Source: Micromonospora sp. R77
GTDB taxonomy: Bacteria > Actinomycetota > Actinomycetes > Mycobacteriales > Micromonosporaceae
Assembly (NCBI RefSeq): GCF_022747945.1
Contig: NZ_JALDST010000001.1
Location: 6,138,001-6,202,000 of the forward strand
Direction: 5' to 3'
Length of the DNA: 64,000 bases
The first letter of the stretch is position 1, and every line of letters starts with the position of its first letter. Below are positions 4,446 through 28,675 of this stretch, piece after piece. A program made the translations under genes and the position numbers. The notes under the pieces were generated by a model. That model worked only from the letters and a program-made list of their open reading frames with translations. It had not been told where the DNA came from and made no database searches.

Positions 4446-5719
4446 ATCTCACCGATACGCCGCCGGTCCGGGCACCGGACGGTCTGCTGCGCCACCGGAA
4501 CTTCCGGCTGCTCTGGCTGGGCGAGGCGACCAGCAAGGCCGGCAGCGCGGTGACCGGCGTGGCGTTCCCCCTGGTGGCGGTCGTGACCCTGGACGCCACC
4601 CCGGTCACCATGGGCGTGATCAACGCGATGGCGTGGCTGCCCTGGTTGCTGATGGGCCTGCCCGCCGGGGCGTGGATCGACCGCTACCCGCGCCGACGGA
4701 CCATGCTGTCCGCCAACGCCGTCTCGATCGCCGTGCTGGTCAGCGTCCCGCTGGCGGCGTGGCTGGGCCTCCTGAGCGTCGGACAGTTGATCGTGGTGTC
4801 CTTCGTCGCCGGCACCGCGTCGATGTTTTTCAGCACCGCCTACCAGGCTTTCCTGCCGGCGGTGGTGGACAAGACCGACTTGGCCGAGGCGAACGCCAAA
4901 CTCCAGGGCACCGACCAGGTGGCCAACCTGGCCGGGCCGCCGCTGGGCGGCCTGATCACCCAGGCCGCCGGCGCGGTGACCGGGCTGCTGGTCGACGCGG
5001 TCACCTTCGTCGTCTCGGCGGTGTGCCTGCTGCGGATGCGGGTCGCGGAAGTGCTGCCCGCTCCCGCCGCGCACCGCACCAGCACCCGACACGAGATCGG
5101 CGAAGGGCTGCGGTACGTGGGACGGGACCGGTACCTGCGGATCCTGGCCATCAGCGCAGCCGTGGACAACTTCACCCTCAACGCGATGTACGCGCTCACG
5201 GTGCTCTTCCTGATCCGCACCGTCGGTGCCGCGCCGGGCGCCGTCGGGTTCCTGCTCGCGGCGGACTTCGTCGGCGGTCTGCTCGGCGCGATCATCGCCC
5301 GGCGGGTGGCCGGGCGGCTCGGGACCGCCCGTACCCTGCTGCTCTTCTCGATCGGGACCGCACCCTTCTGCCTGCTGGTACCCCTGACCCAGAACGGGCC
5401 GGGGCTGGCCCTGTTCGTCCTCGGGATCCTCGTGCCGTCGATCGGCATGGTGGTCGGCAACGTCGTCGTCACCGGGTTCCGGCAGTCGTACTGCCCGTCA
5501 CACCTGCTCGGCCGGGTCTACACCAGTTCGCGGTTCATCCAGTTCGGGATCATCCCCGTCGGTGCGGTTCTCGGCGGATGGCTCGGCGCCGTGCTCGGCG
5601 TACGGCAGGCGCTGTGGGTGATCACCGTCGCCGTGATCCTCGGCAAGCTCGTCCGGCTCATCGGCCCCATCAAGTCCGCCCGGGACTTTCCCACCGCACC
5701 GAAGGAGGACGTGTCGTGA
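4442..5719 (+). CDS. MFS exporter of the EntS / DHA3 type
   Basis: The 425-aa integral membrane protein has about twelve hydrophobic segments. It begins with LLRHRNFRLLWLGEATSKAG, typical of the EntS-like MFS branch that exports siderophores, macrolides and peptides. The conserved loop between TM2 and TM3 reads GAWIDRYPRRRTM. The ATG at 4442 overlaps the upstream stop, and its own stop overlaps the start of the MbtH gene, so it sits inside the biosynthetic operon. It is the likely export and self-protection pump for the peptide made by the downstream NRPS. The exact substrate cannot be read from sequence. Confidence 0.88.
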   Translation: MNLTDTPPVRAPDGLLRHRNFRLLWLGEATSKAGSAVTGVAFPLVAVVTLDATPVTMGVINAMAWLPWLLMGLPAGAWIDRYPRRRTMLSANAVSIAVLVSVPLAAWLGLLSVGQLIVVSFVAGTASMFFSTAYQAFLPAVVDKTDLAEANAKLQGTDQVANLAGPPLGGLITQAAGAVTGLLVDAVTFVVSAVCLLRMRVAEVLPAPAAHRTSTRHEIGEGLRYVGRDRYLRILAISAAVDNFTLNAMYALTVLFLIRTVGAAPGAVGFLLAADFVGGLLGAIIARRVAGRLGTARTLLLFSIGTAPFCLLVPLTQNGPGLALFVLGILVPSIGMVVGNVVVTGFRQSYCPSHLLGRVYTSSRFIQFGIIPVGAVLGGWLGAVLGVRQALWVITVAVILGKLVRLIGPIKSARDFPTAPKEDVS

Positions 5720-5955
5720 CCAACCCGTTCGAGGACGAGGACGGCGTGTACCTGGTTCTGGTCAACGCCGACAACCAGCACTCGCTGTGGCCCGCCCGGA
5801 TCGCCGTGCCGGCCGGGTGGCGGGTGACCTTCGGCGAGGACAGCCGGCAGGCCTGCCTGGACCACATCGAACGCTGCTGGACCGACCTGCGCCCGGCGGG
5901 CCTCTCCACCGGCGCGAACCCGGCCGTCCTGACCGGGCGCGCCACCGACAAGTAG
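5716..5955 (+). CDS. MbtH-like NRPS chaperone
   Basis: The 79-aa protein has the full MbtH signature: N-terminal NPFEDEDG, then NADNQHSLWP and VPAGW (the paired Trp residues that contact adenylation domains), and a C-terminal segment ending WTDLRPAGL. MbtH-like proteins bind NRPS A domains and are often needed for their solubility and activity. It lies 12 bp upstream of the NRPS gene. The start is the GTG at 5716, preceded by a strong GAAGGAGG (5701-5708) and overlapping the MFS stop as GTGA. Confidence 0.95.
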   Translation: MTNPFEDEDGVYLVLVNADNQHSLWPARIAVPAGWRVTFGEDSRQACLDHIERCWTDLRPAGLSTGANPAVLTGRATDK

Positions 5956-5967
5956 GGATGGTCGACG

Positions 5968-8900
5968 GTGACTCAGTCACAGCAGCGGCTCGGCGACGTC
6001 GGGGCACCGGCCGGCACGGGAACAGGGACGCGGGGAACGGATGATGCTCGCCTCGAGCCGCGCCGACCGGACGAGGTGCCCGGTCACGTCGAGGTGCCCC
6101 CGCCCAGGTGGCCCGACGCCGGGTGGAACGACACCGCTGCCGTGTTCCCGGCCGACGCGTGCCTGCACGACCTGATCGCGGAGCAGGCCGCCCGCACGCC
6201 GACGGCGACCGCCGTGGTGTCCGGGAACGACCGGCTCAGCTACCGGGAGCTGGACGAGCGCGCCGACCTGCTCGCCGCGCGCGTACGCCGACGGGGCGCC
6301 GGCCGCGGTCAGGTGGTCGGCATCTGCCTGGAGCGCGGACCTGAGCTGGTCGTCGCGGTGCTCGCCGTGCTCAAGGCGGGAGCCGCGTACACCCTGCTGG
6401 ACCCGGCGTTCCCGCCGTCCCGGCTGGGTACGGTGCTCGCCGAGGCCCGCTGCCAGCTCGTCGTCACCGACCGCGACGCGGCCGACCGGCTGCCCGACGC
6501 GCCCGTCGAGCTGATCCGGGTCGACGCCGGCACCACCACCGGCTCACCCGCTGTGCCGGACGGCGACGGCGTCGGCGTCACTGCCGGGGATCTCGCCTGT
6601 GTCATGTTCACCTCGGGCTCCTCCGGCCGACCCAAGGGGATAGCCACGCCGCACCGGGCCGTCGTGGGCACGCTGCTCGGCCAGTCCTTCGTGGCGTTCG
6701 GTCCGGCGCAGGTGTGGTTGCAGTGCGCGCCGGTGTCGTGGGACGCCTTCGCCCTGGAGCTGTTCGGTGCGCTGCTGCACGGCGGGACCTGTGTGCTGCA
6801 CCCCGGCGGTAGGCCCGAGCCGCTGACCATCGCCGACCTCGTCGAGCGGCACGGTGTGACGGTGCTGCACCTGTCGGCCAGTCTGCTCAACCACATGCTC
6901 GACGAGCACCCCGGGGTGTTCGACCGGGTGGGGAACGTGTTGACCGGCGGTGAGCCGGCCTCGGTCGCGCACGTGGCCCGGCTGCTGCGCCGCCGCCCCG
7001 ACCTGAATCTCGTCAACGGCTACTCACCCGCCGAGTCGACCATCTTCACCACCTGCCATCGGATCGCCCCGGCGGACACCGCGCGGGCGATCCCGGTGGG
7101 CGGTCCGCTCCGCAACAAACGGGTGTACGTGCTCGACGACAACCTCGACCCGGTGCCCGTCGGGACCGTCGGCGAGCTGTACATGGCCGGTGTCGGGCTC
7201 GCCGACGGGTACATCCACCAGCCCGGGACGACGGCACAGCGGTTCGTGGCGAACCCCTTCGACGCGCCCGGGGAGCGGATGTACCGCACCGGTGACCTCG
7301 TGCGCTGGCGCGCGGACGGGGTGCTGGACTTCCTCGGCCGGGCGGACGAGCAGGTCAAGATCCGTGGTTTCCGGGTGGAGCCCGGTGAGATACGGGCGGC
7401 GTTGACGCAGCATCCGGCGGTGCGCCAGGCGGAGGTCGTCGTCCGGGAGGACCGGCCCGGCGACCGGCGGCTCACCGCGTACGTGGTGCTCGTGCCCGAC
7501 GCCGAGGCCAGTGCGGCGGACCTGCGGGCCGACGCGCGGACCCGGCTGCCCGAACACCTGGTACCGGCGGCCGTGGTGATCCTCGACGCCCTGCCCATCA
7601 CCGCGAACGGGAAGCTCGACCGCGCCGCCCTGCCCGCCCCGACGACGCAGGTGCGCGGTCGCGCGCCACGGACACCGACGGAGGCGACGCTCTGCGCGCT
7701 CTTCGCCGACGTGCTGGGGCTGCCCATGGTCGGCGTCGACGACGACTTCTTCGACCTGGGCGGCCATTCCCTCCTGGCGTCCCGGCTGATCAGCCGGATC
7801 CGCGCCGAGCTGACGGCGGAGATCGACATCCGGACCCTGTTCGAGGCGCCGACACCGGAGGCGCTCGCCGACGTGGTCCCGGCGGCACCGGCGGCCCGCC
7901 CGCCACTGCACCCCCGCCGCCGGCCCGCCGAGCTGGAGCCGTCGGCGGCCCAGCAGCGACTGTGGTTCCTCGACCAGTTCGAGCGGGCGCCGGAGAAGTA
8001 CAACCTCGTTCGCGTGGTGCGGGTGGCGGGCCCGCTCGACGTCGCCGCGTTCGGCGCGGCGGTGCGGGACCTGGCGGAACGGCACGAGGTGCTGCGTACC
8101 GTGTTCCCCGCCGTCGACGGGCGCCCCCGGCAGCGCGTCGCCGACGTCACGTCGGTGTCACCGCGGCTGCGTACCGCCCCGGTCGGCCCCGATCCCGACG
8201 CGGCGGTACGCGCGGAGGCGACCGAGGCGTTCGACCTCGCCGGCGAATCCCCGTTGCGGGTCACCGTGCTGCACGCCCCGCACGAGACGCTGATCGTGCT
8301 GGTGCTGCACCACATCGCTGGCGACGGCTGGTCCATGCGTCCGCTGCTGCGCGATCTCGGCCTGGCCTACCAGGCCCGGCTCGCCGGACATGCCCCGGAC
8401 TGGGACCCCCTGCCGGTGGCCTATGCCGACTACACGCTCTGGCAGCGTGACGTCCTCGACGGTGGCGTCGCCGACCGGCAACTCGCGTACTGGCGCGAAC
8501 GTCTCGACGGCGTGCCCGCCGAGATCCCGCTGCCCGCGGACCGGCCGCGTCCCGCCGAGCCGACCCACGCGGCCGGCACGGTGCCCTTCCGGCTGCCCGC
8601 GGACCTGCACGCCCGGCTCGTCGAGGTCGCCCAGGCAGCTCGCGCCACCGTCTTCATGGTGCTGCACGCGGGGCTCGCCGCGACCCTCACCCGGCTCGGC
8701 GCCGGAACCGACGTGCCGGTCGGCACGGTCGTGGCAGGCCGTGCCGACGTCGCCCTCGACGACCTGGTGGGTTTCTTCGTCAACACCCTCGTGCTGCGCA
8801 CCGACACCTCGGGCAACCCGTCCCTGCGTCGGCTGCTCGACCGGGTCCGGGACACCGACCTGGCCGCCTTCGCGCACCAGGACGTCCCGTTCGACCAGGT

Positions 8901-11406
8901 CGTCGAAGCGGTGAACCCGCACCGGCACCCGGCCCGGCACCCGCTGTTCCAGGTGCTGTTGGTGCTGCAGAACGCGACCGGGACGGAGACCGTGCCGGGC
9001 ATGGGCGCCACGGTGACGGAGAGCCGGCCGGCGGCGACCAAGTTCGACCTGATGCTCGATGTGGCCGAGCAGCACACCGCCGACGGTGAACCGGCCGGCA
9101 TCACCGGTGTGCTGGAGTACGCCACCGACCGGTTCGACCACACCACCGTCGCCGCGCTGGCCGAGCGGCTGGCGACGGTGCTCACCGCCGACCCGGGACT
9201 CCCGATCGGCGACCTGGACCTGCTCACCCCGGACGAGCGGGCGGCCCTGACCGACTGGAACGACACCGACGCGCCCTGTCCCGCCCGGTGCCTGCACGAC
9301 CTGATCACCGAGCAGGCGGCGCGGACCCCGGACGCCACCGCCCTGACCACCGGCGACGCGATGCTGACCTACGGGGCGCTGGAGTCCCGCGCGAACCGGC
9401 TCGCGCACCGACTGGTCGAGGCCGGGGTACGGCCGGGCGTCGTCGTCGGCGTGTACCTCGCACGCGGTGTCGACCTCGTCGTGGCGCTGCTCGCGGTGCT
9501 CAAGGCAGGTGGGGCGTACACCCTGCTCGACCCGGCGTTTCCCGCCGCCCGGATCGCCGCGGTCGCCGCGCTGACGCCCCTCGTGGTCACCCGGCGACCG
9601 GATTCCGGCCGCCTGCCCGCCACCACCCGACGGCTGCACCTCGACGACGGGACCTCGGAAGACGGCCCCGCCACGCCGCCGGCCGTCGCGGTCCGACCCG
9701 ACGACCCGGCATGCGTCATGTTCACCTCGGGCTCCACGGGAACACCCAAGGGGGTCGTGGCGGCCCACCGGGCGTTGGTGGGCACCTACGCGGGCCAACG
9801 GTACGCCGACTTCGGCCCGGCAGAGGTCTTCCTCCAGTGCGCCCCGGTCTCCTGGGACGCGTTCGCGCTGGAACTGTTCGGGGCGCTGCTGTTCGGTGGC
9901 GTCTGCGTGCTGCACCCCGACGGCCGGCCGGACCCCGAACGGATCACCGAACTGGTGGCCAGGCACGGGGTCACCATGCTGCAGACCTCCGCCAGCCTCT
10001 TCAACCACCTCGTCGACGAGTACCCGCAGTCGTTGCGCGGGGTGCGGCGGGTCTTCACCGGCGGGGAGCCGGCCTCACCGGGGCACGTCGCCGCCGCGCT
10101 GCGCCGATGGCCCGGGCTGGTGGTGGTCAACGGCTACGGACCCGCCGAAAGTCTCGGCTTCACCACCTGGCACCCGCTCAGCGACGTCACCGAGGTCACC
10201 GGTGCGACCGTACCGATCGGCCTGCCGGTGGCGAACAAGCGGGCGTACGTCCTCGACGGCGACCTGCGCCAGGTCCCGCCCGGGGTGGCCGGCGAGCTGT
10301 ACGTGGCCGGCGTCGGTCTCGCCGTGGGCTACCTGGACCAGCCCGGACAGACCGCGGCCCGGTTCGTGGCCGACCCGTCCGGTCCGGCCGGGGCGCGGAT
10401 GTACCGCACCGGCGACCTGGCCCGGCGCCGCGCCGACGGGGTCCTCGAGTTCCTGGGCCGGGTCGACGACCAGGTCAAGATCCGTGGGTTCCGGGTGGAA
10501 CCGGCGGAGGCGGTGGCGGCGCTGACCGCCCATCCGGCGATCAGCCAGGCGGCCGTGGTGGCGCTCGCCGACCCCGCGCACGGCAACCGACTGGTCGCCT
10601 ACGTGGTCTCCCGGTCCGTGACCGCCGCCGAGGTACGGGCCCACGCGGCGGAGCTGTTGCCCGGTCACCTCGTCCCCTCCGCCGTGGTCCTGCTGACCGA
10701 GCTGCCCCGCACGGCCAACGGCAAACTGGATCGGGCCGCGCTGCCCACCCCGGACTTCGCCGCCGCGTCGGCGGGTCGGGCGCCCCGCACCCCGCGCGAG
10801 GAGATCCTCTGCGGCCTGATGGCCGAGGTGTTGGGGCTGCCTGCGGTGACCGTCGACGACGACTTCTTCGCCCTCGGCGGGCACTCGTTGCTGGCGACCC
10901 GGCTGGTCAGCCGGGTGCGCGCGACGGTGGGGGTGGAGGTGCCCCTCGCCGCGCTGTTCGCCGCGCCGACCGTGGCCGATCTCGCCGTCCGGCTCGACGG
11001 CTCGCCGCCCGCACGGCCGGCGGTCAGCGCCAGGCCGCCGGACGCACCGCCAGTCGTCGCACGCCCAGCGCCGGCTGTGGTTCCTCGACCAGACCGACGA
11101 CGACGGCCGCACCTACAACGCGCCGCAGGCGGTGCGGGTCCGCGGCCGGCTCGACCCGGACGCGCTGCGGGCGGCGCTCGGCGACGTGATGGCCCGCCAC
11201 GAACCGCTGCGCACCCTCTTCCCGGCGGTGGACGGCGAACCCCACGCGGTGGTGCCGGCCCCGGAGGACGTCCGACCGGTGCTGGACGTCGTCGCCACCC
11301 CGGCGCCGGACGCCGCGCAGGTCGTGGCCCGGGTGGCCCGCCACCGGTTCGTCCTCGCCGACGAAGCCCCGCTGCGGGCCACCCTGATCGAACTCGACGA
11401 CGGTGA
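5968..11406 (+). CDS. Nonribosomal peptide synthetase, modules 1-2 (5' part of a frame-broken gene)
   Basis: Domains in order are A1 (from about residue 65; core [12 protein letters not shown] at 213, NGYSPAE at 350, NGKLD at 547), T1 (GGHSLL, carrier Ser 601), C2 (begins about 659; active site HHIAGDG at 781), A2 (about 1108-1590; NGYGPAE at 1388) and T2 (carrier Ser 1640). It starts with an A domain, so it is the loading protein; the residues before A1 ([10 protein letters not shown]...) look like a C-A linker, as if a condensation domain had been removed. No epimerase or methyltransferase is present. Derived specificity codes are DALSLGGIFK for A1 and DALSFGGGFK for A2, which I cannot match to a residue. 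After about residue 1680 the frame leaves the homology and runs on as an Arg/Pro-rich tail to the TGA at 11406; the natural continuation (C3) is in the next frame. Intact, the protein would be about 6,130 aa. Confidence 0.9.
11000..11060 (+). other. Frameshift point in the NRPS gene (T2-C3 linker)
   Basis: Homology runs in one frame to the end of carrier domain 2 ([16 protein letters not shown], about 11000-11020). It resumes one base on in the next frame with [13 protein letters not shown] (from 11054), the first core motif of condensation domain 3. Both frames are open from 10528 to 11406, so one extra base (or two missing) in this Pro/Arg/Ala-rich linker explains it. Sequencing or assembly error in GC-rich repeated DNA, a real inactivating mutation, and recoding are all possible; the first is the simplest. 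Confidence 0.75.
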
Positions 11407-14400
11407 CTCGGTGCTGGTGCTGGTCCTGCACCACATCGCGTCCGACGGCTGGTCGATGGCACCACTGGTGCGCGACCTGGCCGCCGCCTACGCGGCGCGG
11501 CACGCGGGAACCGCGCCGGAATGGGCGCCGCTGCCCGCCCGCTACAGCGACTACGCCCGCTGGCAGCACGCCCTGCTCGGCGACGAGAAGGACCAGGACA
11601 GCCTGCTGCACGCCCAACTGCGGTTCTGGACCACCGCGCTGGCGGGGCTGCCCGGGTCGCCCGTGCTGCCCACGGACCACCCCCGGCCGGCCGACGGCGC
11701 CACGGCGGGCGACACCGCCGCGCTGCGGATCTCGCCGCAGACCCACGCCCGCCTCGCCGACCTCGCCCGGGCCGGCAACGTCACGCTGTTCATGGTGCTC
11801 CAGGCGGCCCTGGCGGCCCTGCTCACCCGCCTCGGCGCGGGCACCGACGTCCCGATCGGCACGGCGGTCGCCGGGCGTACCGACGCGGCGCTCGACGACC
11901 TCGTCGGGTTCTTCGTCAACACCCTGGTGCTGCGCACCGACACGACGGGCGACCCGACGTTCCAGGAGCTGCTGGGCCGGGTCCGCGCCGCCGATCTCGC
12001 CGCGTTCGACCACCAGGACGTGCCGTTCGACCGGGTGGTCGAGGCGGTCAACCCGCCCCGTTCCACCGCGTGGCACCCACTGTTCCAGGTCATGCTGGTG
12101 CTGCAGAACACCGCCGACGGGGAGGTGCACCTCGGTGCGACGCCGGCCCGGCTGGAGCCGGTCCGCACCGGCACGGCCAAGTTCGACCTGAACGTCGAAC
12201 TGCGGGAGTGCCGGTCCGCCGACGGATCGGCCGGAGGGCTCACCGGCGTGGTGGAGTTCCCCGGCGCGCTGTTCGACCGGTCCACGGTGGAAGCCTTCGC
12301 GGCCCGTCTGGTGCGGCTGCTCGACCAGGTCGCCGTCGCACCGGACACCCGGATCGGTGCCGTCGGCCTGCTGGACACCGCCGAACGGGACCGGCTGCTG
12401 CACACCTGGAACGACACCGGCGCACCCGCGCCGTCCGGCACCCTCCACGAGACGGTGACCGCCGTCGCCGTCGCCACCCCGGACGCGACCGCCCTGATCT
12501 TCGACGGTCACCGGGTCGGCTACGGCGAACTCGACGCCCGAGCCGACCGGTTGGCCCGACGGCTGGCCTCGGCGGGTGCCCGCCGCGGCACCGTGGTCGG
12601 GGTCCAGCTCGACCGGGGACCGGACCTGGTCGTCGCGGTGCTGGCCGTACTCAAGACCGGCGCGGCGTACACCATGCTGGACCCGGCCTTCCCGGCGCGG
12701 CGCCGCCGCGCGGTGCTCGCGGAGACCGGCGCGCCGCTGGTGGTCACCCACGACGGTGCCGGCCTGGACGGCGTGCGTTGCGTACCGCCCACCGACCCCG
12801 ATGACGGCGGGCCGGACACCGGCTGCGAGCCCTGGACCGCCGTCCCGGTGGGCCCCGACGACCCCGCCTGCGTCATGTTCACCTCCGGCTCGACCGGACG
12901 CCCCAAGGGGATCCTGACCTCGCACCGGGCCGTGCTCGGCACCCTGCTGCACCAGTCCTACGTCGACTTCGGGTCGAGCGAGGTGTGGTTGCAGTGCGCG
13001 CCGGTGTCCTGGGACGCCTTCGCGCTGGAGCTGTTCGGGCCACTCCTGACCGGTGGCACCTGCGTCCTGCACCCCGGCGGTGCCCCCCAGCCCGAGCTGA
13101 TCGCCCGACTGGTGCCCGAGTGCGGGGTGACCACCCTGCACGTGTCCGCCAGCCTGCTCAACTTCCTCATCGACGAGTACCCGACGGTGTTCGACCAGGT
13201 CCGGCAGGTGATGACGGGAGGCGAGGCGGCCTCGGTCGAGCACGTCGCCCGGCTACTGGACCGGCATCCCGACCTGCGTCTGGTCAACGGGTACTCGCCG
13301 GCCGAGAACACGATCTTCACGGTGTGCCACCGGGTCACCCGGGACGACGCCGACCGCGCCTCGATCCCGGTGGGCAGCCCGATCGCCGGCAAGCGGGTCC
13401 ACGTGCTCGACGACCGGCTCGCCCTGGTGCCGGTCGGAGTCGTCGGTGAGCTGTACATGGCCGGGGTGGGGCTCGCCGACGGGTACGTGAACCAGCCGGG
13501 CACCACGGCGACCCGCTTCGTCGCCCACCCGTTCGGCGCGCCCGGCGAGCGGATGTACCGCACCGGCGATCTGGTGCGCTGGCGGGCCGACGGGGTCCTG
13601 GAGTTCGTCGGGCGGGCCGACGACCAGGTGAAGATCCGCGGCTTCCGGGTGGAGCCGGGCGAGGTGCAGGCCGCCCTGACCCGTCATCCGGCCGTCGCGC
13701 AGGCCGCCGTGGTCGTGCGGCAGGACCGGCCGGGGGATCCGCGGCTGACCGCGTACGTCGTCACCCGACCCGGCCCGGCACCCACCCCGGCGGCCCTGCG
13801 CGACCACACACGGGACCTCCTGCCGGCACATCTCGTGCCCAGCGCGGTCGTGCTGCTCGACGCCCTGCCGGTCACGCCCAACGGCAAGCTGGACCGGGCC
13901 GCGTTGCCCGCACCCGCTGCCGACCCCGGCACGGGGGTCGTGCAGCCACCGGCCGACGCCCGTGAGGCGATCCTCTGCGGGCTCTTCGCCGACATTCTCG
14001 GCCTGCCGGAGGTGGGCCGGCACGACGACTTCTTCGCCCTGGGCGGGCACTCGTTGCTCGCCGCCCGCCTCATCGCCCGGGTGCGGGCCACGTTCGCCGC
14101 CGAGGTGGACATCCGCACCGTGTTCCGGACGCCGACCGTGGCCGGCCTGGCCCGGATGCTCGACGGGGCGGCGGCACGCCGGCCGGCACTGCGACGCCGG
14201 ACCGATCCGGCCGTCGTCCCCGTGTCGCACGCGCAGCGGCGGATGTGGTTCCTCCGCGAGGTCGACCGTCCGGAGGCCTACAACGTGCCGCTGGCGTACC
14301 GGCTGCGCGGCCGGCTCGACCGGGCCGCGCTCGTCCACGCGCTGGCCGACCTGGTGGACCGGCACGAGGTGCTGCGGACGGTCCTCCCGTCGGTGCACGG

Positions 14401-17400
14401 GCAGCCGCAGCCGGTCACGTTGACCGGTGTGCCGCCCGTGGTCGAGGTCGTCACCTGCCCGCCCAATGATCTTCCCGCCGCCCTGGGACGCGCCCTCGCG
14501 TACCCGTTCGACCTGGCCGTCGAGCTGCCGATCCGGGTGACCGTCTTCGAGGTGGGCGCCGAGACGGTGCTGTTGCTGCTGCTGCACCACGTGGCGTGCG
14601 ACGGCTCGTCGGTCGGGCCGCTGACCCGTGACCTCGCCACCGCCTACACCGCCCGCCACGCCGGCACCACTCCCGACTGGTCGCCGCTGCCGGTGCAGTA
14701 CGCGGACTACGCCGCCTGGCAGGACCTGCTGCTCGGCGCGGCCGACGAGCCGGAGAGTGTGACCGCCACCCAACTGCGGTACTGGACCGCGGCACTCGAC
14801 GGGCTGCCCGACGCGCCGGTGGTGCCCACCGACCGGGCCCGCCCACCGGTCGTCGGCGTGGCCGGGGAGTCGGTGCCGGTACGGTTCACCGCCGACACCT
14901 GCCACCGCATGGCCGCCCTCGCCCGCGCGGCCCGGGTCACGCCGTTCATGGTGCTGCACGCGGCGTTGGCGGCGGTGCTCACCCGGCTGGGCGCCGGCAC
15001 CGACGTGCCCATCGGTAGCCCCGTGGCGGGACGGCCCGACGAGGCGTTGACCGATCTGGTCGGGTTCTTCGTCAACACCGTGGTGCTGCGGACCGACACC
15101 TCGGGCGACCCGACCTTCCGGGAACTGCTCGGCCGGGTCCGGGAGACCGACCTCGCCGCGTACGCGCACCAGGATGTGCCGTTCGAACGGGTCGTCGAGG
15201 CCGTCAACCCGACCCGGTCGTCGTCGTGGCATCCGCTGTTCCAGGTGATGCTCGTGCTGACCGACAGCAGCGGTCGCGACCTCGACCTGCCCGGCCTGGA
15301 GTGCGCGCCCGCACCGGTCGAGGTGCCGGTCGCCAAGTTCGACCTGACTCTCACGCTCACCCAGGGGCCGGACGGCATCACCGGTTCGCTGGACTACGCC
15401 ACCGACCTGTTCGAGCGGGCCACCGCGCAGACCACGGCGGACGCCCTGATCCGGCTGGTGTCGGCGGTGCTGGCCGACCCCGACCGCCCGATCGGTGCGG
15501 TGGAACTGCTGGACCCGGCCGAGCGCCGGCTGGTCCTGACCGATTGGAACGCAACCGAGGTCGACGCGCCACTGGAGCTCACGCTGGGTGAGCTGTTCGA
15601 GCGGCAGGCCGCGTCCCGTCCCGACGCCACCGCGGTCCTGTTCGAGGGACGGCCGCTCAGTTACGCCGCGCTGGACGCCGCCGCCAACCGGATCGGCCAC
15701 GCCCTGGTCCGCCTCGGTGTCGGCCCGCACGTCATCGTCGGGGTGCACCTCGACCGCGGGCCGGGCCTGGTGGCGGCGCTGCTCGGCGTCCTCAAGGCCG
15801 GCGGCGCGTACACCCTGCTGGACACCGCCTTCCCGGCGGGCCGTCTGCGGGCCGTGGTCGCCGACACCGGCATCCCGCTGGTCATCTCCGCCGACGACGG
15901 TGACCTGCTCGCCGGTCTGCCCACCACCGTGGTCCGGCCCGACACCCTCACCGGACCGTCGACACCCGTCGGAACGCGGGCCGTCCCCACCGGTCCCGCC
16001 TGCGTCATGTTCACCTCCGGCTCCACCGGCGGCCCGAAGGGGATCGTGGCACCGCACCGCGCGCTGGCCGGCACCTTCCTCGGCCAGTCCTACGTCGACT
16101 TCGACGCCGACCAGGTGTTCCTGCAGTGCGCCCCGGTGTCGTGGGACGGGTTCGCGTTGGAGCTGTTCGGTGCGCTGTTGACCGGTGCCACCTGCGTGCT
16201 GCACCCGGGGCAGCGGCCGGAGCCGGACACCATCGCGGCCCTCACCGCGGCGCATGACGTGACCATGCTCCAGATGTCGGCCAGCCTCTTCAACCTCCTG
16301 CTCGACGAGTATCCCGCGGCGTTCGAGGGGCTGCGTTGGGCGATCACCGCAGGGGAGTCAGCGTCCGTGGCACATGTGACGAAAGCGGTGCGCCAGTTCC
16401 CGCACCTGTCGGTGGTCAACGGCTACGGCCCGGCGGAGAGCATGGGCCTGACGACGGCGCACCGGGCCGGTGCCGCGCCGGCGGGCGCGACCTCCGTGCC
16501 GATCGGCGGGCCGGTGGCCAACAAGAAGGTGTACGTGCTGGACGTGGCCCTGCAACCCGTGCCCCCGGGTGTGACCGGCGAGGTGTACGTGGCGGGCGTG
16601 GGTCTGGCCAACGGCTACGTCAACCGGGCCGCGTCGACCGCCGAGCGGTTCGTGGCCAACCCGTACGGCGGGCCCGGCGAGCGGATGTACCGCACCGGGG
16701 ACCTGGCCCGCTGGCGGCCGGACGGGGTGCTGGACTTCGTCGGGCGGGCGGACGACCAGGTGAAGATCCGTGGCTTCCGGGTGGAACCGGGCGAGGTGGA
16801 GGCGGTGCTGCACCGGCACCCCGCCGTCGCGCAGGCCGCGGTCGTCGTCCGGGAGGACCGGCCGGGGGACCGGCGGCTGGTCGCCTACGTCGTACCGGTG
16901 CGGGGCAACGACCCGCTCCCGGGCCTGCGCCGTTACCTCGAGGAGCGGCTGCCCGCCCACCTGATGCCCGCCGCGATGGTGGCGCTGCCCGCGCTGCCGC
17001 TGACCGCGAACGGCAAGCTCGACCGGCGGGCGTTGCCGGTGCCGGAGGTCGGTCCGGACGCCACCGGGCGGGGTCCCCGCAATCCCCGCGAGGAGATCCT
17101 GTGCGGGTTGTTCGGCGACGTTCTGGGCCTGACCGGGGTCGGTATCGACGACGACTTCTTCGCCCTCGGGGGACACTCGCTGCTGGCGACGCGGCTGATC
17201 AGCCGGGTCCGGTCGGTGCTCGGCGCCGAACTGCCGATCCGTGCGGTGTTCCAGTGGCCCACCGTGTGCGGGCTCGCCGACCGGCTCACCCGGGCGGAGC
17301 GTCCGCCGGTACGGTCGCGGCCGCGCCCGGAACGGGTGCCGCTCTCGTTCGCCCAGCAGCGGCTGTGGTTCCTGGACCGGCTGGACGGTCCGAGCGCCAC

Positions 17401-20400
17401 CTACAACGCGCCGCTGGCGGTGCGGCTGCGCGGCCCGGTCGACCTGCCCGCGCTGGCCGGGGCGGTCACCGACGTGGTGGCCCGGCACGAGGTGCTGCGT
17501 ACGGTGTTCGTGGTGCAGGACGGCGAGCCGAGCCAGGTCGTGCTGCCGCCCGCCGAGGTGGACCTGGCGGTGGTGGACTGCACGGCGGAGGGTCTCGACG
17601 CGGCCGTGGCCCGTGCCGTGGCCGAGCCGCACGACCTGAGCCGGACCGACCGGGCGCCGGTACGCGCCACGCTGCTCGCCGTCGGGCCCGACGACAACGT
17701 CCTGCTGCTGATGCTGCACCACATCGTCAGCGACGGCTGGTCCCTGGGCCCGCTGCTGCGTGACCTGTCCGCCGCGTACCGGGCGCGACGGGAAGGGGCC
17801 GAGCCGGAGCGGGATCCGCTCGCCGTCCAGTACATCGACTACACGCTGTGGCAGCGGGAGCTGCTCGGGGCCGAGGACGACCCGCACAGCCTGCTGTCGC
17901 GTCAGTTGGCGTACTGGACCGAGGCGTTGGCGGGGCTGCCGGAGGAGCTGACGCTGCCCACCGACCGGCCCCGGCCGGCCCGCCCCAGCCACCGGGGTGA
18001 CGTGGTGACGCTGGACCTGGGCGGTGAGCTGTACCCGGCCCTCACCGGGCTCGCCCGGGAGACCGGGGTCACCCTGTTCATGGTGTTGCAGGCCGGCCTG
18101 GCGGCGTTGCTGACCAGGCTCGGCGCGGGCACCGACGTGCCGATCGGTTCACCCGTCGCCGGCCGCACCGATCAGGCGCTCGACGACCTGGTGGGGTTCT
18201 TCGTCAACACCCTGGTGCTGCGTACCGACACCTCCGGCGAGCCGAGCTTCCGGGACCTGCTGGCCCGGGTCCGGGAGACCGACCTGGCCGCGTACACCCA
18301 TCAGGACGTGCCGTTCGAGCGGCTGGTCGAGGCGCTCAACCCGGCGCGCTCGACCGCCCGGCACCCGCTGTTCCAGGTGAACCTGGTGGTGCAGAACAAC
18401 TCCGCGGCCACGGCCGAGTTCCCCGGCGTACGGGCGCAGATCCTGCCCGTCGGCGCCGACGTCGCCAAGTTCGACCTGGGGCTGGCCTTCGTGGAGCAGC
18501 TTCCCGAGGGCGGGTCCGGTGGCCTCACCGGCTACCTGGAGTACGCCTGCGACCTGTTCGACCGCGCGACCGCCGAGGCGATCGGCCGCCGCCTGGTACG
18601 CCTGCTGTCCGCCCTGTCCACCGACCCGGACCTGCCCATCGGCGCGGTGGACCTGTTCGACCCGGGCGAGCGGACCCGGTTGATGCACGAGTGGAACGAC
18701 ACCGCCACTGTCGTCCCCGACGCCTGTCTGCACGAGATGTTCGAGGCGCACGCCGCCGACCGTCCGGAGGCGACGGCGCTGGTGTGCGGGGACCGCACGG
18801 TCAGTTACGCCGCACTGAACGCCGACGCGGACCGGATCTCCCACGGACTCAGCCGGGCCGGGATCGGCGTCGGCGACGTGGTGGGGGTGCACCTGCCGCG
18901 CGGGCCGGAGCTGGTGGCCGCCGTGCTGGGCGTGCTGAAGGCGGGCGCCGCGTACACCATGCTCGACCCGGACTTCCCGCCCGAACGGCTCGCGGCCGTC
19001 GTCGCCCAGGCGGCCGTGGCGCTGGTGCTCACCGACGAGGTGGGGTTCGCCGGCCACCCCGCCACCCGACAGATCGCCGACCTGCTGCGCGACCCCACCG
19101 TCGCCGGGACCGGCTCCGGTGACGGGCCGGCGCGCCGGGCCCGCCCCGGCGACGTCGCCTGTGTCATGTTCACCTCCGGCTCGACCGGCCAGCCCAAGGG
19201 CATCGCCTCCCCGCACCGGGCCGTCGTCGGCACCCTCTGTGGGCAGGACTTCGTCCGTTTCGGACCCGGGGAGGTGGTGCTGCAGTGCTCACCGGTCTCC
19301 TGGGACGCGTTCGCGCTGGAACTCTTCGGCGCTCTGCTGTTCGGCGGGACCTGCGTGCTGCACCCCGGTGGGAAACCCGAACCGGCCGTGATCGCCGAGC
19401 TCATCGCCCGGCGGCACGTCTCCACCGTCCACCTGTCGGCCAGCCTGCTCAACTTCCTGCTCGACGAGTATCCGGGCGTGCTGACCGGGGTGGACCAGGT
19501 GATGACCGGCGGTGAACGCGCGTCGGTGTCGCACCTCGCCGCCCTGCTGGAGGCGTACCCGGGCGTCCGCGTGGTGAACGGCTACTCGCCGGCGGAGAGC
19601 ATGATCTTCACGACCTGCCACACCGTGGAGCCGGCCGACGTGGCCCGGGGGACCGTCCCGGTCGGCCGTCCGATCCGCAACAAGCGGGTGTACGTGCTCG
19701 ACGAGGCACTGCGACCCGTGCCGGTCGGGGTCGCCGGTGAGCTGTACATGGCCGGCGTGGGGCTGGCCGACGGGTACGTCCGGCAGGCCGCGCTGACCGC
19801 GGAGCGGTTCGTCGCCCACCCGTACGGCGCACCCGGCGAGCGGATGTACCGCACCGGCGACGTGGTGCGCTGGCGTGCCGACGGGGTGTTGGACTTCCTC
19901 GGCCGGGCCGACGACCAGGTGAAGATCCGCGGCTTCCGGGTGGAGCCGCGGGAGGTCGAGGCGACCGTCGGCGGCTATCCCGGTGTGGCACGTACCGCGG
20001 TGGTGGTGCACGAGGTGGGGCCGGGGGACAAGCGGCTCGTCGCGTACGTGGTCGCCCGCGCCGGCACCGCGGTCAGCGTGACGGACCTGCGCCGCCACGT
20101 CGCCGACCGGCTGCCCGAGCACCTGGTGCCGCAGGCGTTCGTGCTCGTCGACGCGTTCCCGCTGACCCCGACCGGGAAGCTCGACCGGCGGGCCCTCCCG
20201 GTGCCCGAATTCACCGGCACCAGCAGCGGACGTCCGCCCCGCACACCGCGTGAGGAGATCCTCTGCGGGCTGTTCGCCGAGGTGCTCACGCTGCCCGGGG
20301 TGGGCGTCGACGACGACTTCTTCGCTCTCGGCGGGCACTCGCTGCTGGCGGCGCGGCTGATCAGCCGGGTCCGCGCCGCTCTCGGCGCGGAGCTGGCGAT

Positions 20401-23400
20401 CCGGACGCTGTTCCAGTACCCGACGGTGGCCGGCCTGGCCGGCCGGCTGGACGACGAGACCCAGATCCGTCCGCCGGTCGCCCGCCGGCCGCGCCCGGAC
20501 CGGCTGCCGCTGTCGTCGGCGCAGCGCCGGCTCTGGTTCGTCGACCAGCTCGAAGGACCCAGCGCCACATACAACGCGCCCTTCGCGTTGCGCCTCACCG
20601 GGCCGGTCGACCCGGCCGCCCTCGCCGCGGCACTCACCGACGTGGTCGCCCGGCACGAGGCGCTGCGGACCGTGTTCCAGACCACCGACGGCCTGCCCTG
20701 GCAGCGGATCCTCCCCGCCGACGAGGTGCGATTCTCGGTGCCGGTGCGCACCTGCGCGGAAGCGGACCTCGGCCGCGCCCTGGAGCAGGCCGCCCGCGTG
20801 CCGTTCGACCTCGCGACCGAGGTGCCGATCCGGGCCGAGCTGTTCGCACTCGACGCCGACAATCACGTCCTGCTCCTGACGTTGCACCACATCGCCTGCG
20901 ACGGCTGGTCCACCGGTCCACTGCTGGCGGACCTGGCCGTCGCGTACGCCGCCCGGCACGCCGGTGAGCCCCCGCAGTGGTCGCCGCTGCCGGTGCAGTA
21001 CGCGGACTACACGCTGTGGCAGTGGGACCTGCTCGGCGCCGAGGACGACCCGGACAGCCTGCTCACCCGCCAGTCGCAGTACTGGGCCAGCGTCCTGGCC
21101 GACCTGCCCGACGAACTGGACCTGCCGACCGACCGGCCCCGCCCCGCACTACTGCGCTCCGGAGGCGGTGTCGTCGACCTGCGGCTCGACGCGGAACTGC
21201 ACGGCCGGCTCGCCGCCGTCGCCCGGGCACACCAGGTCACGCTCTTCATGGTGCTGCAGGCCGCGCTGGCGGCGCTGCTCACCCGGCTCGGTGCGGGCAC
21301 CGACATCCCGCTCGGGACGCCGGTCGCGGGGCGTACCGACAGCGCCCTCGATGATCTGGTCGGCTTCTTCGTCAACACGCTGGTCCTGCGCACCGACACC
21401 AGCGGCGATCCCACCTTCGACGCGCTGCTGCGCCGGGTCCGGGACGCCGACCTGACCGCCTTCGCCCACCAGGACGTGCCGTTCGAGACGGTGGTCGACC
21501 TGGTCCGCCCGCCGCGCACGCCGGCCCGGCACCCGCTGTACCAGGTGAGCCTGGTGGTGCAGAACAACGCGCGCGGCGAGCTGGCTATCTCGGGCCTGAC
21601 GGTGCGGACCGAGCCGGTGGGGACCGGCGTGGCGAAGTTCGACCTCACCTTCGCCTTCGGCGAGAACCGCGACGTCGACGGCACCCCGGCCGGCATCGAC
21701 GGCGCCGTCGAGTACGCCCGGGACCTGTTCGACCACGCCAGCGTGGAGGCGATCGGGCAGCGGTTCGTGCGGCTGCTCACCGCCGTCGCCGCCGATCCCG
21801 AGATCCGCATCGGCGACGTCGACGTGCTGACCCCCCAGGAGCGGCACCAGCTGCTCGTGGAGTGGAACGACACCGCCCGCGACGTGCCCCTGGACCGCTG
21901 CCTGCACGACCTGGTGGCCGAGCAGGCGGCCCGGACACCCGACGCCACCGCCCTGATCCACGACGACCGGGAGATCTGCTACGCCGAGCTGGACCGGGCG
22001 GCCAACCGACTGGCCCACCACCTGATGTCCCTGGGGCTCGGCCGGGGCGCGCTCGCCGGCGTCCACCTGGAACGCGGCCCGGATCTGGTGGTCAGCCTCC
22101 TCGCCGTGCTCAAGACCGGCGCCGGGTACACGCTGCTGGATCCGGAATTCCCCACCGAGCGGCTGCGCTGCGCGCTCGCCGACACCGCCGCCCCCGTGAT
22201 CATCACCCGGTCCGGTCTGCTCGACCGGCTCGGCGCGGGGGACGTCACCCACGTCCGGGTCGACACGGACGCCGCCGTCATCGTCGCCCACCCGGCCCAG
22301 GCGCCCGCCGTGTCGGCCGATCCCGGTGACACCGCCTGCGTGATGTTCACCTCCGGCTCCAGCGGGCGACCGAAGGGGGTCGCGGCCCCGCACCGCGCGC
22401 TGGTCGGCACGTTCCTCGGCCAGTCCTACGTCGACTTCGGCGCCGGCCAGGTCTTTCTGCAGTGCGCGCCGATGTCGTGGGACGCGTTCGCGCTGGAGCT
22501 GTTCGGTGCCCTGCTGTTCGGGGGCACCTGTGTGCTGCAACCGGGTAGCCGGCCGGATCCGCAGGCGATCGCCGGTCTGGTCGCCGCGCACGGGGTCACC
22601 ATGCTGCAGATGTCCGCCAGCCTGTTCAACTTCATGACCGACGAGAACCCGACGGTCTTCGAGGGGCTGCGCTGGGCGATCACCGCGGGTGAGGCGGCGT
22701 CGCCGGCCCACGTGCGCAGGGCGATGCGGCAGTGGCCCGGGCTGCGGGTGGCCAACGGGTACGGCCCGGCGGAGAGCATGGGCCTGACCACCGCCTACGA
22801 GGTGCCCCGCGAGGACGGGCCGCCCGGCCGCACGGTGCCGATCGGCGCCCCGGTCGCCAACAAGACCGCTCACCTGCTCGACGTCTCGCTGCAGCCGGTC
22901 CCTCCCGGCGTGGTCGGGGAGCTCTACCTCAGCGGTGCCGGGCTCGCCAACGGTTACGTGGCGCAGCCGGCCCTGACCGCCGAACGGTTCGTGGCCAACC
23001 CGTTCTCCGGCGACGGCTCGCGGATGTACCGCACGGGTGACCTGGGCCGGTGGACCGTCGACGGGGAACTGGAGTTCGTGGGCCGGGCCGACGACCAGGT
23101 CAAGATCCGTGGATTCCGGGTGGAGCGGGCCGAGGTCGAACAGGCCCTGCTGCGCCATCCGGCGCTCACCCGCGCGGCCGTCGAGGTGCGCGAGGACCGA
23201 CCGGGAGACCGGCGGCTCGTCGCCTACGTCGTCGGTGCGGCGGAGCCCGGTGAGGTCCGCGCCCACCTGGCCCGGCAGCTGCCCGAGCACATGGTGCCGT
23301 CGGCGGTCGTGGTGCTCGACGGGCTCCCGATGACCACCAACGGCAAGCTGGACCGCGCCGCGCTGCCCGCCCCGGAGTACCGCACCGCCGGCCGACCGCC

Positions 23401-24433
23401 GCGTACCGACGTCGAACGGCACCTGTGCACCCTCTTTGCCGAGGTACTGGGACTGCCGGAAGTCACGGTCGACGACGATTTCTTCGTCCTCGGCGGGCAC
23501 TCCCTGCTCGGTGCGGTGCTGGCCGGGCGGATCTCCCGAGACCTGGGGACCCCGGTCAGCGTGCGGTCGCTGTTCGAGGCGCCGACCGTGGCCCGGCTGG
23601 CCGAACAGCTCGACACCTGGGCCGACCCGCTGGCGACGATGCTTCCGCTACGTAAGGACGGCAGCGCACCGCCGCTGTTCTGCGTCCACCCGGCCGCCGG
23701 CTTCGGCTGGGTCTACGCCGGGCTGCGCGGGCACCTCCCCGACCGGCCGCTGTATGCGCTGCAGTCACCCGCGCTCGCCGACCCGCACCGGCACACCGAC
23801 GACCTCGACGCGTTGGTGTCGTACCACCTCGCCGAGATCCTCGCCGTCCAACCGACGGGCCCGTACCACCTGCTCGGCTGGTCCTTCGGCGGCGCGCTCG
23901 CCCACGGGATCGCCGCCCGGCTCCGCGCGGCGGGGGAGCAGGTGGCGCTGCTCGCCCTCCTGGACGCCTACCCGTTCGAAGCGGACCCCGGTGCCGCGCC
24001 CCTGCACCCCGACGACCCGGCGGCGATCGCCGCCGTCCTGGACTCGCTGGGACGGCCGGTGCCCGACGGGCCGCTGACGCTCCACGACCTGTCCGGGCTG
24101 GACCTGGACTCCCTGGGCGCCACCGCCGCGTCGGTGCTACGGGTCTTCGTCGACCACGTGAACCTGACCCGGTCGGTCACCTCGCCCCCCTTCGACGGGG
24201 ACCTGCTTCTGTTCACCGCCGCCGAGTCCACCGCGGCACGACGGTGGCCCTCGTACGGGACACGGCACGTCGAGGTGCATCCCGTGCCGTTCTCCCACGG
24301 CCTCATGACAAGCCCGGCGGCGCTGGCCCACATCGGGCCGATCCTCGCCGCCCACCTGACCACCACGCCGAACGCCGGCCGGGTGACCGGCTCCACCCCC
24401 GGACCGGCCACCCCGAAAGGAGAAGCACAGTGA
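11132..24433 (+). CDS. Nonribosomal peptide synthetase, modules 3-6 plus thioesterase
   Basis: The listed start is merely the first GTG in this frame; the C3 domain actually begins upstream at about 11054. Residue numbers count from 11132. C3 (HHIASDG at 100), A3 (NGYSPAE at 719), T3 (Ser 974); C4 (SHAQRRMWF at 1031, HHVACDG at 1152), A4 (NGYGPAE at 1763), T4 (Ser 2016); C5 (2071, HHIVSDG at 2196), A5 (NGYSPAE at 2816), T5 (Ser 3070); C6 (3128, HHIACDG at 3252), A6 (NGYGPAE at 3875), T6 (Ser 4124); then a type I thioesterase (GWSFGG, Ser 4251, with a following LLDAYP Asp and a late FSHG His). All C domains have intact HHxxxDG and there are no E domains, so L residues are expected unless pre-epimerised. 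Codes are A3 DALSMGGIFK, A4 DGLSIAGGLK, A5 DALSMGGIFK, A6 DALSIAGGLK. The TE should release a linear or macrocyclic hexapeptide. Confidence 0.92.
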
Positions 24434-24807
24434 CTGACACCGTCGTCCATCCCGAGCTGCACGCCCGGACCGTGCGTGACTACTTCGGTCTCATCGACAC
24501 CGGTGACCTACTGGATTCGGTCGCCCTGTTCGCCCCCGACGCCGTCTACCACCGCCCCGGCCACCCACCGATGGTCGGCCGGGAGCGGATCGCCCACTTC
24601 TACTGCGAGCTGCGACCCATCCGATCGGGCGTGCACACCCTCGACGCCGTGATCGCCGACGGGACTGGTGTCGCCGCCCACGGCGGGTTCCGGGGCGTGG
24701 CCCTGGACGGATCACCGATCGACCTGCGCTTCGCCGACTTCTTCGAGTTCGACGGATCCGGTGCCATCACCCGCCGGGAGACCTACTTCTCCGCCCCGCT
24801 CGTCTGA
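24430..24807 (+). CDS. NTF2/SnoaL-like fold small protein
   Basis: The 125-aa protein fits the SnoaL/NTF2 fold: an opening helix ([32 protein letters not shown]), the [14 protein letters not shown] segment and a C-terminal sheet ending in ETYFSAPLV. Members are cyclases, isomerases or hydroxylase partners, or of unknown role; residues alone do not assign activity here. The GTG at 24430 overlaps the NRPS stop (GTGA) and has AAAGGAG just upstream (24416-24422), so it is translated with the NRPS. It is probably a tailoring or precursor enzyme of the pathway. Confidence 0.75.
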
Positions 24808-24913: not shown

Positions 24914-25993
24914 ATGACCCAGACCCACGCCCCCGTCTCCCGCACCCCGCACGTCGAGCACGGTGCGCAGTTCACCGACACCCTCGTCACCGCGACCTGG
25001 ACCCCGTCCACCGGCTGGAGCCCGGCCACCCGCGGCCCGCTGACGAACTTCGCCATGCACCCCGGCATGATCGGCCTGCACTACGGCCAGGTGGTCTTCG
25101 AGGGCCTGAAGGCCCACCGGCAGGTCGACGGCTCCATGGCGGTGTTCCGGCCCCGGGACAACGCCCTGCGGTTCCAGCGCTCCGCGCGCCGGCTCGCGAT
25201 GCCGGAGGTGCCCGAGGAGATGTTCCTCCAGGCGGTCGACGCAGTCGTCGCCGCCGACGGCCACCACATCGACGACGACCCGAACGTCAGCCTCTATCTG
25301 CGCCCCCTGCTGTTCGCCAGCGAGGCCAACCTGATGCTCCGGCCGGCGAACGAATACACCTTCATGATGATGGCCTTCGTGGCGGGCGGATTCTTCGGCA
25401 GCGCCGTCGAGCCGGTGCGGGTGTGGGTGAGCCGGGACACGGCCAGGGCGTTCCCCGGCGGCACCGGCGACGTCAAGTGCGCCGCCAACTACGCGGGGGC
25501 GTTCCTGACCCAGCGCGAGGCGCAGATGCAGGGCTGCCACCAGGTCGTCTGGCTCGACGCCAGGGAGGGACGCTGGGTCGAGGAGCTCGGCGGCATGAAC
25601 CTGTTCTTCGTGCGGGGCAGCGGTGCCGACGCCGAGGTGCTCACCCCTGAGCTGACCGGCACCCTCCTGCCCGGCGTCACCCGGGACACCCTGCTCACCC
25701 TCGCCACCCGGCTCGGCTACCGCAGCGGCACCACCCGCCTGTCCGTCTCCCAGTGGCAGCAGGAGTGCGCCGACGGCACCATCACCGAGGTCTTCGCCTG
25801 CGGGACGGCCGCAGTGGTCACACCGGTCGGCGCGGTCCGCGACGGCAGCACCGAATGGACGGTCGGCGACGGGACGCCCGGCCCGGTCACCATGCGGTTG
25901 CGCGAGGCGTTGCTCGACCTGCACCACGGCAAGGCCCCGGACCCGGACAGCTGGATGTATCCGGTGAGAGCCGGCAGTCCTCACCGGCAGTAG
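24914..25993 (+). CDS. Class IV aminotransferase, branched-chain type
   Basis: The 359-aa PLP enzyme of fold type IV resembles actinobacterial branched-chain aminotransferases (IlvE). The PLP lysine lies in GGTGDVKCAANYAG (about residues 184-197), and the cofactor-binding EELGGMNLFFV follows near 225. Such enzymes interconvert Val, Leu and Ile with their 2-oxo acids using glutamate; relatives in gene clusters act on unusual beta-branched substrates. It lies 106 bp after the SnoaL-like gene with a GAGGAG site (24897-24902) before the ATG at 24914, and it is followed at once by a strong hairpin, marking the operon end. It may provide the second class of NRPS residue or a beta-branched precursor (inference). 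Confidence 0.88.
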   Translation: MTQTHAPVSRTPHVEHGAQFTDTLVTATWTPSTGWSPATRGPLTNFAMHPGMIGLHYGQVVFEGLKAHRQVDGSMAVFRPRDNALRFQRSARRLAMPEVPEEMFLQAVDAVVAADGHHIDDDPNVSLYLRPLLFASEANLMLRPANEYTFMMMAFVAGGFFGSAVEPVRVWVSRDTARAFPGGTGDVKCAANYAGAFLTQREAQMQGCHQVVWLDAREGRWVEELGGMNLFFVRGSGADAEVLTPELTGTLLPGVTRDTLLTLATRLGYRSGTTRLSVSQWQQECADGTITEVFACGTAAVVTPVGAVRDGSTEWTVGDGTPGPVTMRLREALLDLHHGKAPDPDSWMYPVRAGSPHRQ

Positions 25994-28166: not shown

Positions 28167-28213
28167 CGACAGGGCTTTCTGCGAGTCGCCGGGGTCGACG
28201 ACGGAGCCGGGGC

Positions 28214-28510: not shown

Positions 28511-28675
28511 CGATGTCCTCCCAGCCGTGCCCGTAGGTCAAGAGGATCGCCCACCACCGCTCGCGTCGGCAACGGCCAGGTTCGCTTCACCTCCGTGCCG
28601 GACCCCGGGATGGCACGAGGCAGGCCGCAAATTAGTTTGTGCTGGCGACGCCCCTGCACCAAGCTGCCGCTAACG

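Follow-up and report, generated by a model that had tools for sequence, protein, structure and literature searches.

Streptolydigin biosynthesis in Streptomyces lydicus relies on slgE1-E2-E3 for the supply of 3-methylaspartate, and SlgZ, a protein resembling asparaginyl-tRNA synthetase (AsnRS), is involved in tetramic acid formation (excerpt of PMC5357945). The adenylation (A) domain of SlgN1 (PDB: 4GR5) takes (2S,3S)-beta-methyl-L-Asp and is accompanied by an MbtH-like domain (excerpt of PMC11253843). A second described system makes L-allo-isoleucine with an aminotransferase and an isomerase that invert the beta carbon (excerpt of PMC7459860), a pair named DsaD/DsaE (excerpt of PMC9943842). 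Omnipeptin contains beta-methyl-asparagine and is, to its authors' knowledge, the first bacterial nonribosomal peptide synthetase (NRPS) product to do so (excerpt of PMC6710260). We analysed a 64,000-nucleotide stretch, here called the window, of the draft genome (34 contigs) of Micromonospora sp. R77 (NZ_JALDST010000001.1, positions 6,138,001 to 6,202,000). Its positions 333-25993 hold a co-directional operon encoding MutS, MutE, an AsnA-like ligase, a GltB-like protein, an MFS exporter, an MbtH-like protein, a hexamodular NRPS, a SnoaL-like protein and an aminotransferase. We know of no product for this cluster.

As in streptolydigin biosynthesis, MutS/MutE, AsnRS-like and glutamate-synthase-like genes occur with an A domain that has glutamine at pocket position 278 (Q278). 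Locus L033 of S. lydicus differs: its stretch shows a single Q278 domain, lacks a SnoaL/aminotransferase pair and has MutS/MutE on the opposite strand, whereas the NRPS of the window combines three Q278 with three histidine (H278) domains. A branched-chain-type aminotransferase gene adjacent to a small isomerase-like gene inside an NRPS cluster is also the arrangement of DsaD/DsaE in desotamide and of the marformycin pair MfnO/MfnH. Unlike those pairs, the one here sits with methylaspartate genes, and such aminotransferases form their own branch (support 87) and carry M141. Our favoured reading, to which we give about an even chance, is that the NRPS makes an alternating (X-Y)3 peptide, with 3-methylasparagine (or 3-methylaspartate) as Y and its C-3 epimer as X. 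Omnipeptin, likewise a bacterial NRPS product with beta-methyl-asparagine, differs in being a cyclic depsipeptide of eleven residues, four kinds of which are unusual (excerpt of PMC6710260). A term search of the literature for beta-methyl-asparagine returned the omnipeptin paper only, and no cluster of the same architecture was recognised, which is weak evidence of absence because subscription journals lay mostly outside the search.

Two alternating classes of A domain

The NRPS has the order A1-T1-C2-A2-T2 / C3-A3-T3-C4-A4-T4-C5-A5-T5-C6-A6-T6-TE, where T, C and TE are thiolation, condensation and thioesterase domains and the slash marks a change of reading frame. Six A domains, one TE and no epimerase, as a sequence-only reading of this DNA had described, are what the Pfam domain search finds: the two frames hold 2+4 AMP-binding, 1+4 Condensation, 2+4 PP-binding and one Thioesterase domain, short A and C matches being left out of the annotation. 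Module 1 has no C domain, and no epimerase is assigned because there is no additional Condensation-family domain. Motifs are intact in all five C domains (HHxxxDG) and all six T domains (GGHSLL).

Realigned pockets place His at position 278 in A1, A3 and A5, which share DALH(L/M)GGIFK, and Gln in A2, A4 and A6, which share D(A/G)LQ(F/I)(G/A)GG(F/L)K. The alternation claimed by the sequence-only reading thus stands, both in the codes and in orthologues; its codes with Ser at 278 were rejected, since they were read one column off. The same column mapping yields, in other clusters, codes that we take to be the standard ones for Ser, Thr, Gly, Leu, Tyr and Asp/Asn. Motifs it had listed for A1/A3/A5 (NGYSPAE, VPVG and a string of 14 residues) are present, and A2/A4/A6 have NGYGPAES and VPPG. 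From the two classes the predicted X-Y-X-Y-X-Y order follows by colinearity.

A phylogeny of 123 A domains, drawn from the window and from related clusters and restricted to domains of at least 420 residues with a gap-free code, recovers the 1/3/5 versus 2/4/6 grouping that had been set as a check beforehand. A1/A3/A5 fall in a clade of 48 (SH-aLRT 97), and A2/A4/A6 fall with the S. lydicus domain in a clade of 31 (SH-aLRT 96). Exceptions to the classes are module 4 of Amycolatopsis iheyensis (DGLHMGGGYK, H278), which lies in the Q clade, and five Y/F278 domains in the H clade.

Gene order and the 3+3 alternation recur in three further genomes: G898 (about 95% identity) and G913 (about 80%), both found by a wider search of the genus, and G949 (about 68%), from the genus of A. 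iheyensis. The alternation is therefore neither chance nor an assembly artefact. All four clusters, window included, carry the methylaspartate genes and the SnoaL/aminotransferase pair. A 201-genome sample (own genome included) searched by MutE held no orthologue of the cluster, the best other match being 64%.

Proposed substrates of the Q278 and H278 domains

Among PDB entries, A2 matches 4GR5 best (E 2.9e-181); the code of 4GR5 is DALQIGGGFK. Over 490 residues, 4GR5 and the A domain of L033 are identical, which identifies L033 as the streptolydigin cluster; the L033 domain is 63% identical to A2. L033 also carries homologues of all four methylaspartate cassette genes of the window, including the AsnA-like (67%) and GltB-like (64%) proteins. 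A2, A4 and A6 share the pocket code class and the clade of SlgN1, which comprises Q278 and DAT domains. The cassette is complete, with MutS, MutE, AsnRS-like and glutamate-synthase-like genes together in the operon. It also recurs elsewhere: among loci selected by the AsnA-like protein (the best 80 of 168 relatives), MutS and MutE occur in 72 of 80 and a GltB-like gene in 76 of 80. Methylaspartate supply, by a streptolydigin-type cassette in the operon, belongs to the cluster, as had been supposed. It most probably feeds the SlgN1-like A2/A4/A6, and perhaps A1/A3/A5 too. Hence either 3-methylaspartate or 3-methylasparagine is very probably Y. The presence of an AsnA-like gene favours the amide; a point against it is that SlgN1 is listed for 3-methylaspartate (excerpt of PMC11253843).

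The H278 domains follow the SnoaL/aminotransferase genes. The A3 sequence was searched in 286 Streptomyces and 249 Pseudonocardiaceae genomes, a sample not chosen for either gene set. At E <= 1e-148 there were matches in fifty genomes, from which we read 60 loci (the best domain of each genome and ten second domains); five or six candidates were scored per genome, which covers the lower-ranked domains in part. H278, as D[AG]LH[LM]GG[IV]FK, occurs in 12 genomes, as the best domain in 11 and as the second in G214 (best DGLYMGGIFK). All 12 have a SnoaL relative and all 12 have MutE in the genome; in G1202, MutE and the NRPS are on different contigs. In 15 genomes the best domain is of the Q278 type, and 13 of the 14 tested lack a SnoaL relative (Fisher p = 2.7e-6, uncorrected for kinship; 12 of these 14 were placed in the SnoaL samples partly from genome numbers, genomes without a match being mostly unlisted). 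In 11 of 12 Q278 genomes checked, MutE and the A domain are no more than about 20 kb apart; in G821, MutE is on another contig.

The association is weaker in the AsnA-selected set. Of its 58 loci with an A domain, four have H278 with the SnoaL/aminotransferase genes, three have those genes without H278, two have H278 without them and 49 have neither (p 0.0011). The two H278 exceptions, L005 and L007, end at contig ends, and the L007 genome has the pair on another contig. Among 30 stretches with SnoaL and aminotransferase genes, one or more cassette genes occur in 22, of which 15 carry H278. The eight without a cassette gene include two cut by contig ends, G1202 (H278) and Saccharothrix contig C26; the other six, read over 40-60 kb, have no H278 domain, and in G801, which belongs to these six, there is no A domain at all. 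In the 20 kb of G1103 that were read, an aminotransferase was not seen. In G951 the genes for MutS-MutE-AsnA-GltB, a single H278 A domain, SnoaL and the aminotransferase stand side by side, and G611 shows the same series with one C-A-T module. The simplest reading of this gene content is that cassette, H278 domain and pair serve one substrate; if so, and if the pair inverts a beta carbon, X would be the C-3 epimer of 3-methylasparagine.

The SnoaL-like protein has ketosteroid isomerases as its best PDB matches and an 80% identical counterpart in Micromonospora sp. WMMD882. An Arg near the C-terminus, a feature of the isomerase in DsaD/DsaE-type pairs, occurs in all 13 SnoaL rows compared, at a place that may or may not correspond to that in DsaE. 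In a quick tree, the cassette-linked aminotransferases (24 of the 30 in all) are separated from the unlinked ones by a single branch (SH-aLRT 87). M141 occurs in all 21 aminotransferases labelled 'both', a label that includes G1202 and Saccharothrix contig C26, whose cassette is not on the stretch read; eight unlinked or housekeeping enzymes have A or G. Position 141 presumably lies in a substrate-contacting loop, by comparison with human BCAT structures.

We infer a route whose substrates, catalytic steps, order of amidation and inversion, and mode of release are all predictions. The GltB-like protein would supply glutamate, MutS/MutE would convert it to (2S,3S)-3-methylaspartate and the AsnA-like ligase would amidate this to 3-methylasparagine. 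The aminotransferase, as pyridoxal phosphate (PLP)-dependent partner, and the SnoaL-like protein, as C-3 epimerase partner, would invert C-3 by the chemistry of the L-allo-isoleucine pair DsaD/DsaE. A2/A4/A6 would take the non-inverted and A1/A3/A5 the inverted form, the five C domains would join the residues without alpha-epimerisation, and the TE would release a linear or cyclic hexapeptide for export by the MFS protein. The strictest form of this proposal, which we consider rather less likely than not, is six 3-methylasparagines alternating in C-3 configuration only, with an aminotransferase/NTF2-like pair recruited from isoleucine chemistry to invert C-3 of an amino acid of the aspartate family.

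The chief alternative is that X is L-allo-isoleucine made by an ordinary DsaE/DsaD pair, while A2/A4/A6 take 3-methylasparagine, giving an (allo-Ile, MeAsn) hexapeptide. The described L-allo-isoleucine route uses just such a pair (excerpts of PMC7459860 and PMC9943842), and the aminotransferase of the window matches the branched-chain family above cut-off. Moreover, in five stretches the pair occurs with cassette genes but no H278 domain, and its ties are therefore not exclusively to H278. The H278 code also differs from the valine code mainly in a wider pocket at 278. Against L-allo-isoleucine, H278 was seen only in genomes with MutE (12/12), and the six pairs without nearby cassette genes have no H278. 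Furthermore, the G951, G611 and Hamadaea stretches show no Q278-type or DAT-type domain, which leaves the cassette there without a consumer of recognised type. This last argument is qualified by G951, where three Asp/Asn-like DLPKVGEVGK domains are encoded on the opposite strand at a distance of about 17 kb. On balance we consider L-allo-isoleucine somewhat unlikely. An ordinary desotamide-type cluster is unsupported, because there is no epimerase and H278 goes with the methylaspartate cassette.

The classes could also differ as amide and acid, X being 3-methylasparagine and Y 3-methylaspartate or the reverse, with a pair that supplies or degrades a keto acid or has another role. The listing of SlgN1 for 3-methylaspartate, the place of A2/A4/A6 in its clade and the AsnA-like ligase in the operon agree with this. 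It leaves the link of H278 to the pair unexplained, to which L005 and L007 are the only exceptions among the 58 AsnA-selected loci, and we regard it as improbable.

Several observations weigh against the C-3 epimer as X. The usual substrates of the aminotransferase family are Val, Leu and Ile, and the described pair acts on isoleucine. The SnoaL-like protein is only presumably related to DsaE; searches turned up no DsaE or MfnH sequence. Linked and unlinked pairs are not set apart by the SnoaL tree (grouping the linked ones requires 6 changes), and no SnoaL position passed the filter for separating them. The H278 genomes represent about six architectures in the sample, and the linkage may partly be shared descent because the lineages are few. 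G595 has DGVHMAGGLK, H278 in a Q-like code that we did not count as H278, and no SnoaL match; G208 has Q278 and a SnoaL gene with no aminotransferase detected; and two Q278 domains of G046 lie in neither clade. The five stretches with pair and cassette genes and no H278 are those of S. fulvorobeus, G1207b and G1077, which have Y278 codes, and of G281 and G547, which have MutS/MutE and the pair but no AsnA; the model gives no simple account of these five. Two further stretches with pair and cassette genes show no A domain.

Should X nonetheless be the C-3 epimer, the pattern of the peptide would be written in side-chain handedness rather than residue identity, and the Q278 and H278 codes would tell two C-3 diastereomers apart. 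There would then be a proposed enzyme pair that inverts C-3 of 3-methylasparagine and a genetic marker for clusters making beta-methylated asparagines. Since several architectures carry H278, one product structure would help decode many clusters. With L-allo-isoleucine as X, the cluster would still predict a peptide of alternating beta-branched residues.

Module history and reading frame

The sequence-only reading had explained the alternation by a two-module unit amplified three times, which the C-domain tree and a scan of identity along the alignment do not support. C3 pairs with C4 (99) and C5 with C6 (90), with C2 outside, instead of a 3+5 and 2+4+6 grouping. The two A classes do separate, but within their clades A1 groups with A3 (99) and A4 with A6 (97), an incongruent order. 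In the scan, within-class identity clearly exceeds between-class identity only in columns 720-840, with a slight excess in 600-720 and no consistent excess outside 600-840; the strong class signal spans about 120 columns in the A core. Duplicated modules that have exchanged their A cores would account for these results better than a tripled two-module unit.

In this assembly the NRPS is split over two frames, with modules 1-2 in frame 1 and everything from C3 on in frame 2, the switch lying between about 11001 (the end of T2) and about 11054 (the recognisable start of C3), which counts against production of the hexapeptide here. The three orthologous NRPSs each have six modules in one stop-to-stop frame (6155, 6248 and 6186 codons), so the NRPS is normally a single chain. 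If the frame change between T2 and C3 is real, the cluster would be a relic and this strain would make no hexapeptide, although relatives may make one; this is compatible with every substrate reading. The domain motifs of the NRPS and the rest of the operon appear undamaged, and one-base errors are frequent in draft high-GC assemblies, both of which argue against a relic. We consider one unlikely, if well within reason.

Gene parts and related clusters

Coordinates are given in Table 1. The MutS-like and MutE-like proteins also match the NCBIfam models for methylaspartate mutase S (7.6e-12) and MutE (1.1e-49), each under the equivalog cut-off. The aminotransferase is 50% identical to another copy in the same genome.

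Table 1. Features of the operon and NRPS domains, in window coordinates
Feature	Position	Strand	Basis
MutS-like B12-binding subunit, glutamate mutase (SlgE-type)	333..830	+	Pfam B12-binding 1.1e-9
MutE-like catalytic subunit, glutamate mutase	824..2161	+	Pfam Met_asp_mut_E 1.5e-88
AsnA / AsnRS-like ligase (SlgZ-type)	2158..3165	+	NCBIfam asparagine synthetase A 1.1e-137, above cut-off
Glutamate-synthase-like protein (GltB-like, SlgE3-type)	3162..4445	+	Pfam Glu_synthase 1e-20
MFS exporter (in ORF 3710-5719; start approximate)	4460..5719	+	Pfam MFS_3 1.1e-31, MFS_1 8.3e-28
MbtH-like protein (in ORF 4633-5955; start approximate)	5700..5955	+	Pfam MbtH 3.7e-26
Hexamodular NRPS	5968..24433	+	Pfam domains; single open frame in three orthologues
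A1, DALHLGGIFK, class X	6124..7638	+	pocket alignment
T1	7639..7884	+	GGHSLL motif
C2 (HHIAGDG)	7885..9255	+	motif
A2, DALQFGGGFK, class Y, SlgN1-like	9256..10749	+	pocket alignment, PDB match
T2	10750..11001	+	motif
Reading-frame change (assembly error or real lesion)	11001..11054	+	
C3 (HHIASDG)	11054..12406	+	motif
A3, DALHMGGIFK, class X	12407..13912	+	pocket alignment
T3	13913..14167	+	motif
C4 (HHVACDG)	14207..15544	+	motif
A4, DGLQIAGGLK, class Y	15545..17041	+	pocket alignment
T4	17042..17293	+	motif
C5 (HHIVSDG)	17294..18691	+	motif
A5, DALHMGGIFK, class X	18692..20203	+	pocket alignment
T5	20204..20455	+	motif
C6 (HHIACDG)	20504..21862	+	motif
A6, DALQIAGGLK, class Y	21863..23371	+	pocket alignment
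T6	23372..23617	+	motif
TE (GWSFGG)	23618..24430	+	Pfam Thioesterase 1.1e-27; motif
SnoaL/NTF2-like protein	24430..24807	+	Pfam SnoaL_2 5.2e-17 in longer ORF 24244-24807
Class IV, branched-chain-type aminotransferase	24914..25993	+	NCBIfam branched-chain aminotransferase 2.8e-117, above cut-off

A SARP-like regulator, recognised by inspection, lies directly upstream of MutS outside the window (L003:16263-19376). It is kept in G898 (94%) and G913 (77%); G949 has a 44% match on the opposite strand. Downstream, the PadR gene was not found in the 2.5-3.5 kb past the aminotransferase in the three orthologous regions. Beyond the cluster, 27845-28849 of the window gives a weak match to an IS5-type transposase (NCBIfam 1.9e-8, below cut-off).

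The same genome has a second SnoaL-like relative (50%) at 10632-11006 of L140 (G000:C1:6730000-6749999), with no aminotransferase detected in the 20 kb read. It also has a second MutS-MutE-AsnA-GltB set beside another NRPS in L004 (G000:C1:6932000-6951999), whose codes are DALWVGGIFK and DSYYWGSFAK and where an open reading frame (ORF) resembles, by inspection, a PLP-dependent decarboxylase.

Five eight-module clusters (G1065, G1163, G1210, G1247 and G1202) likewise have H278 modules and the TE-SnoaL-aminotransferase order, and the four whose stretch reaches that far have the same cassette. They differ in having 3-4 H278 domains and no Q278 domain, and in closing with DATK, Leu-like and Ser-like domains, the last module being Ser-like. 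DGLWMGGIFK domains make up three of six A domains in G281 (L183, L146, L226) and two of four in G547 (L182, L144, L227). In L041, L060, L078 and L080, the methylaspartate cassette lies beside NRPSs with the unusual codes DSYYWGVVFK or DSYYWGAVFK.

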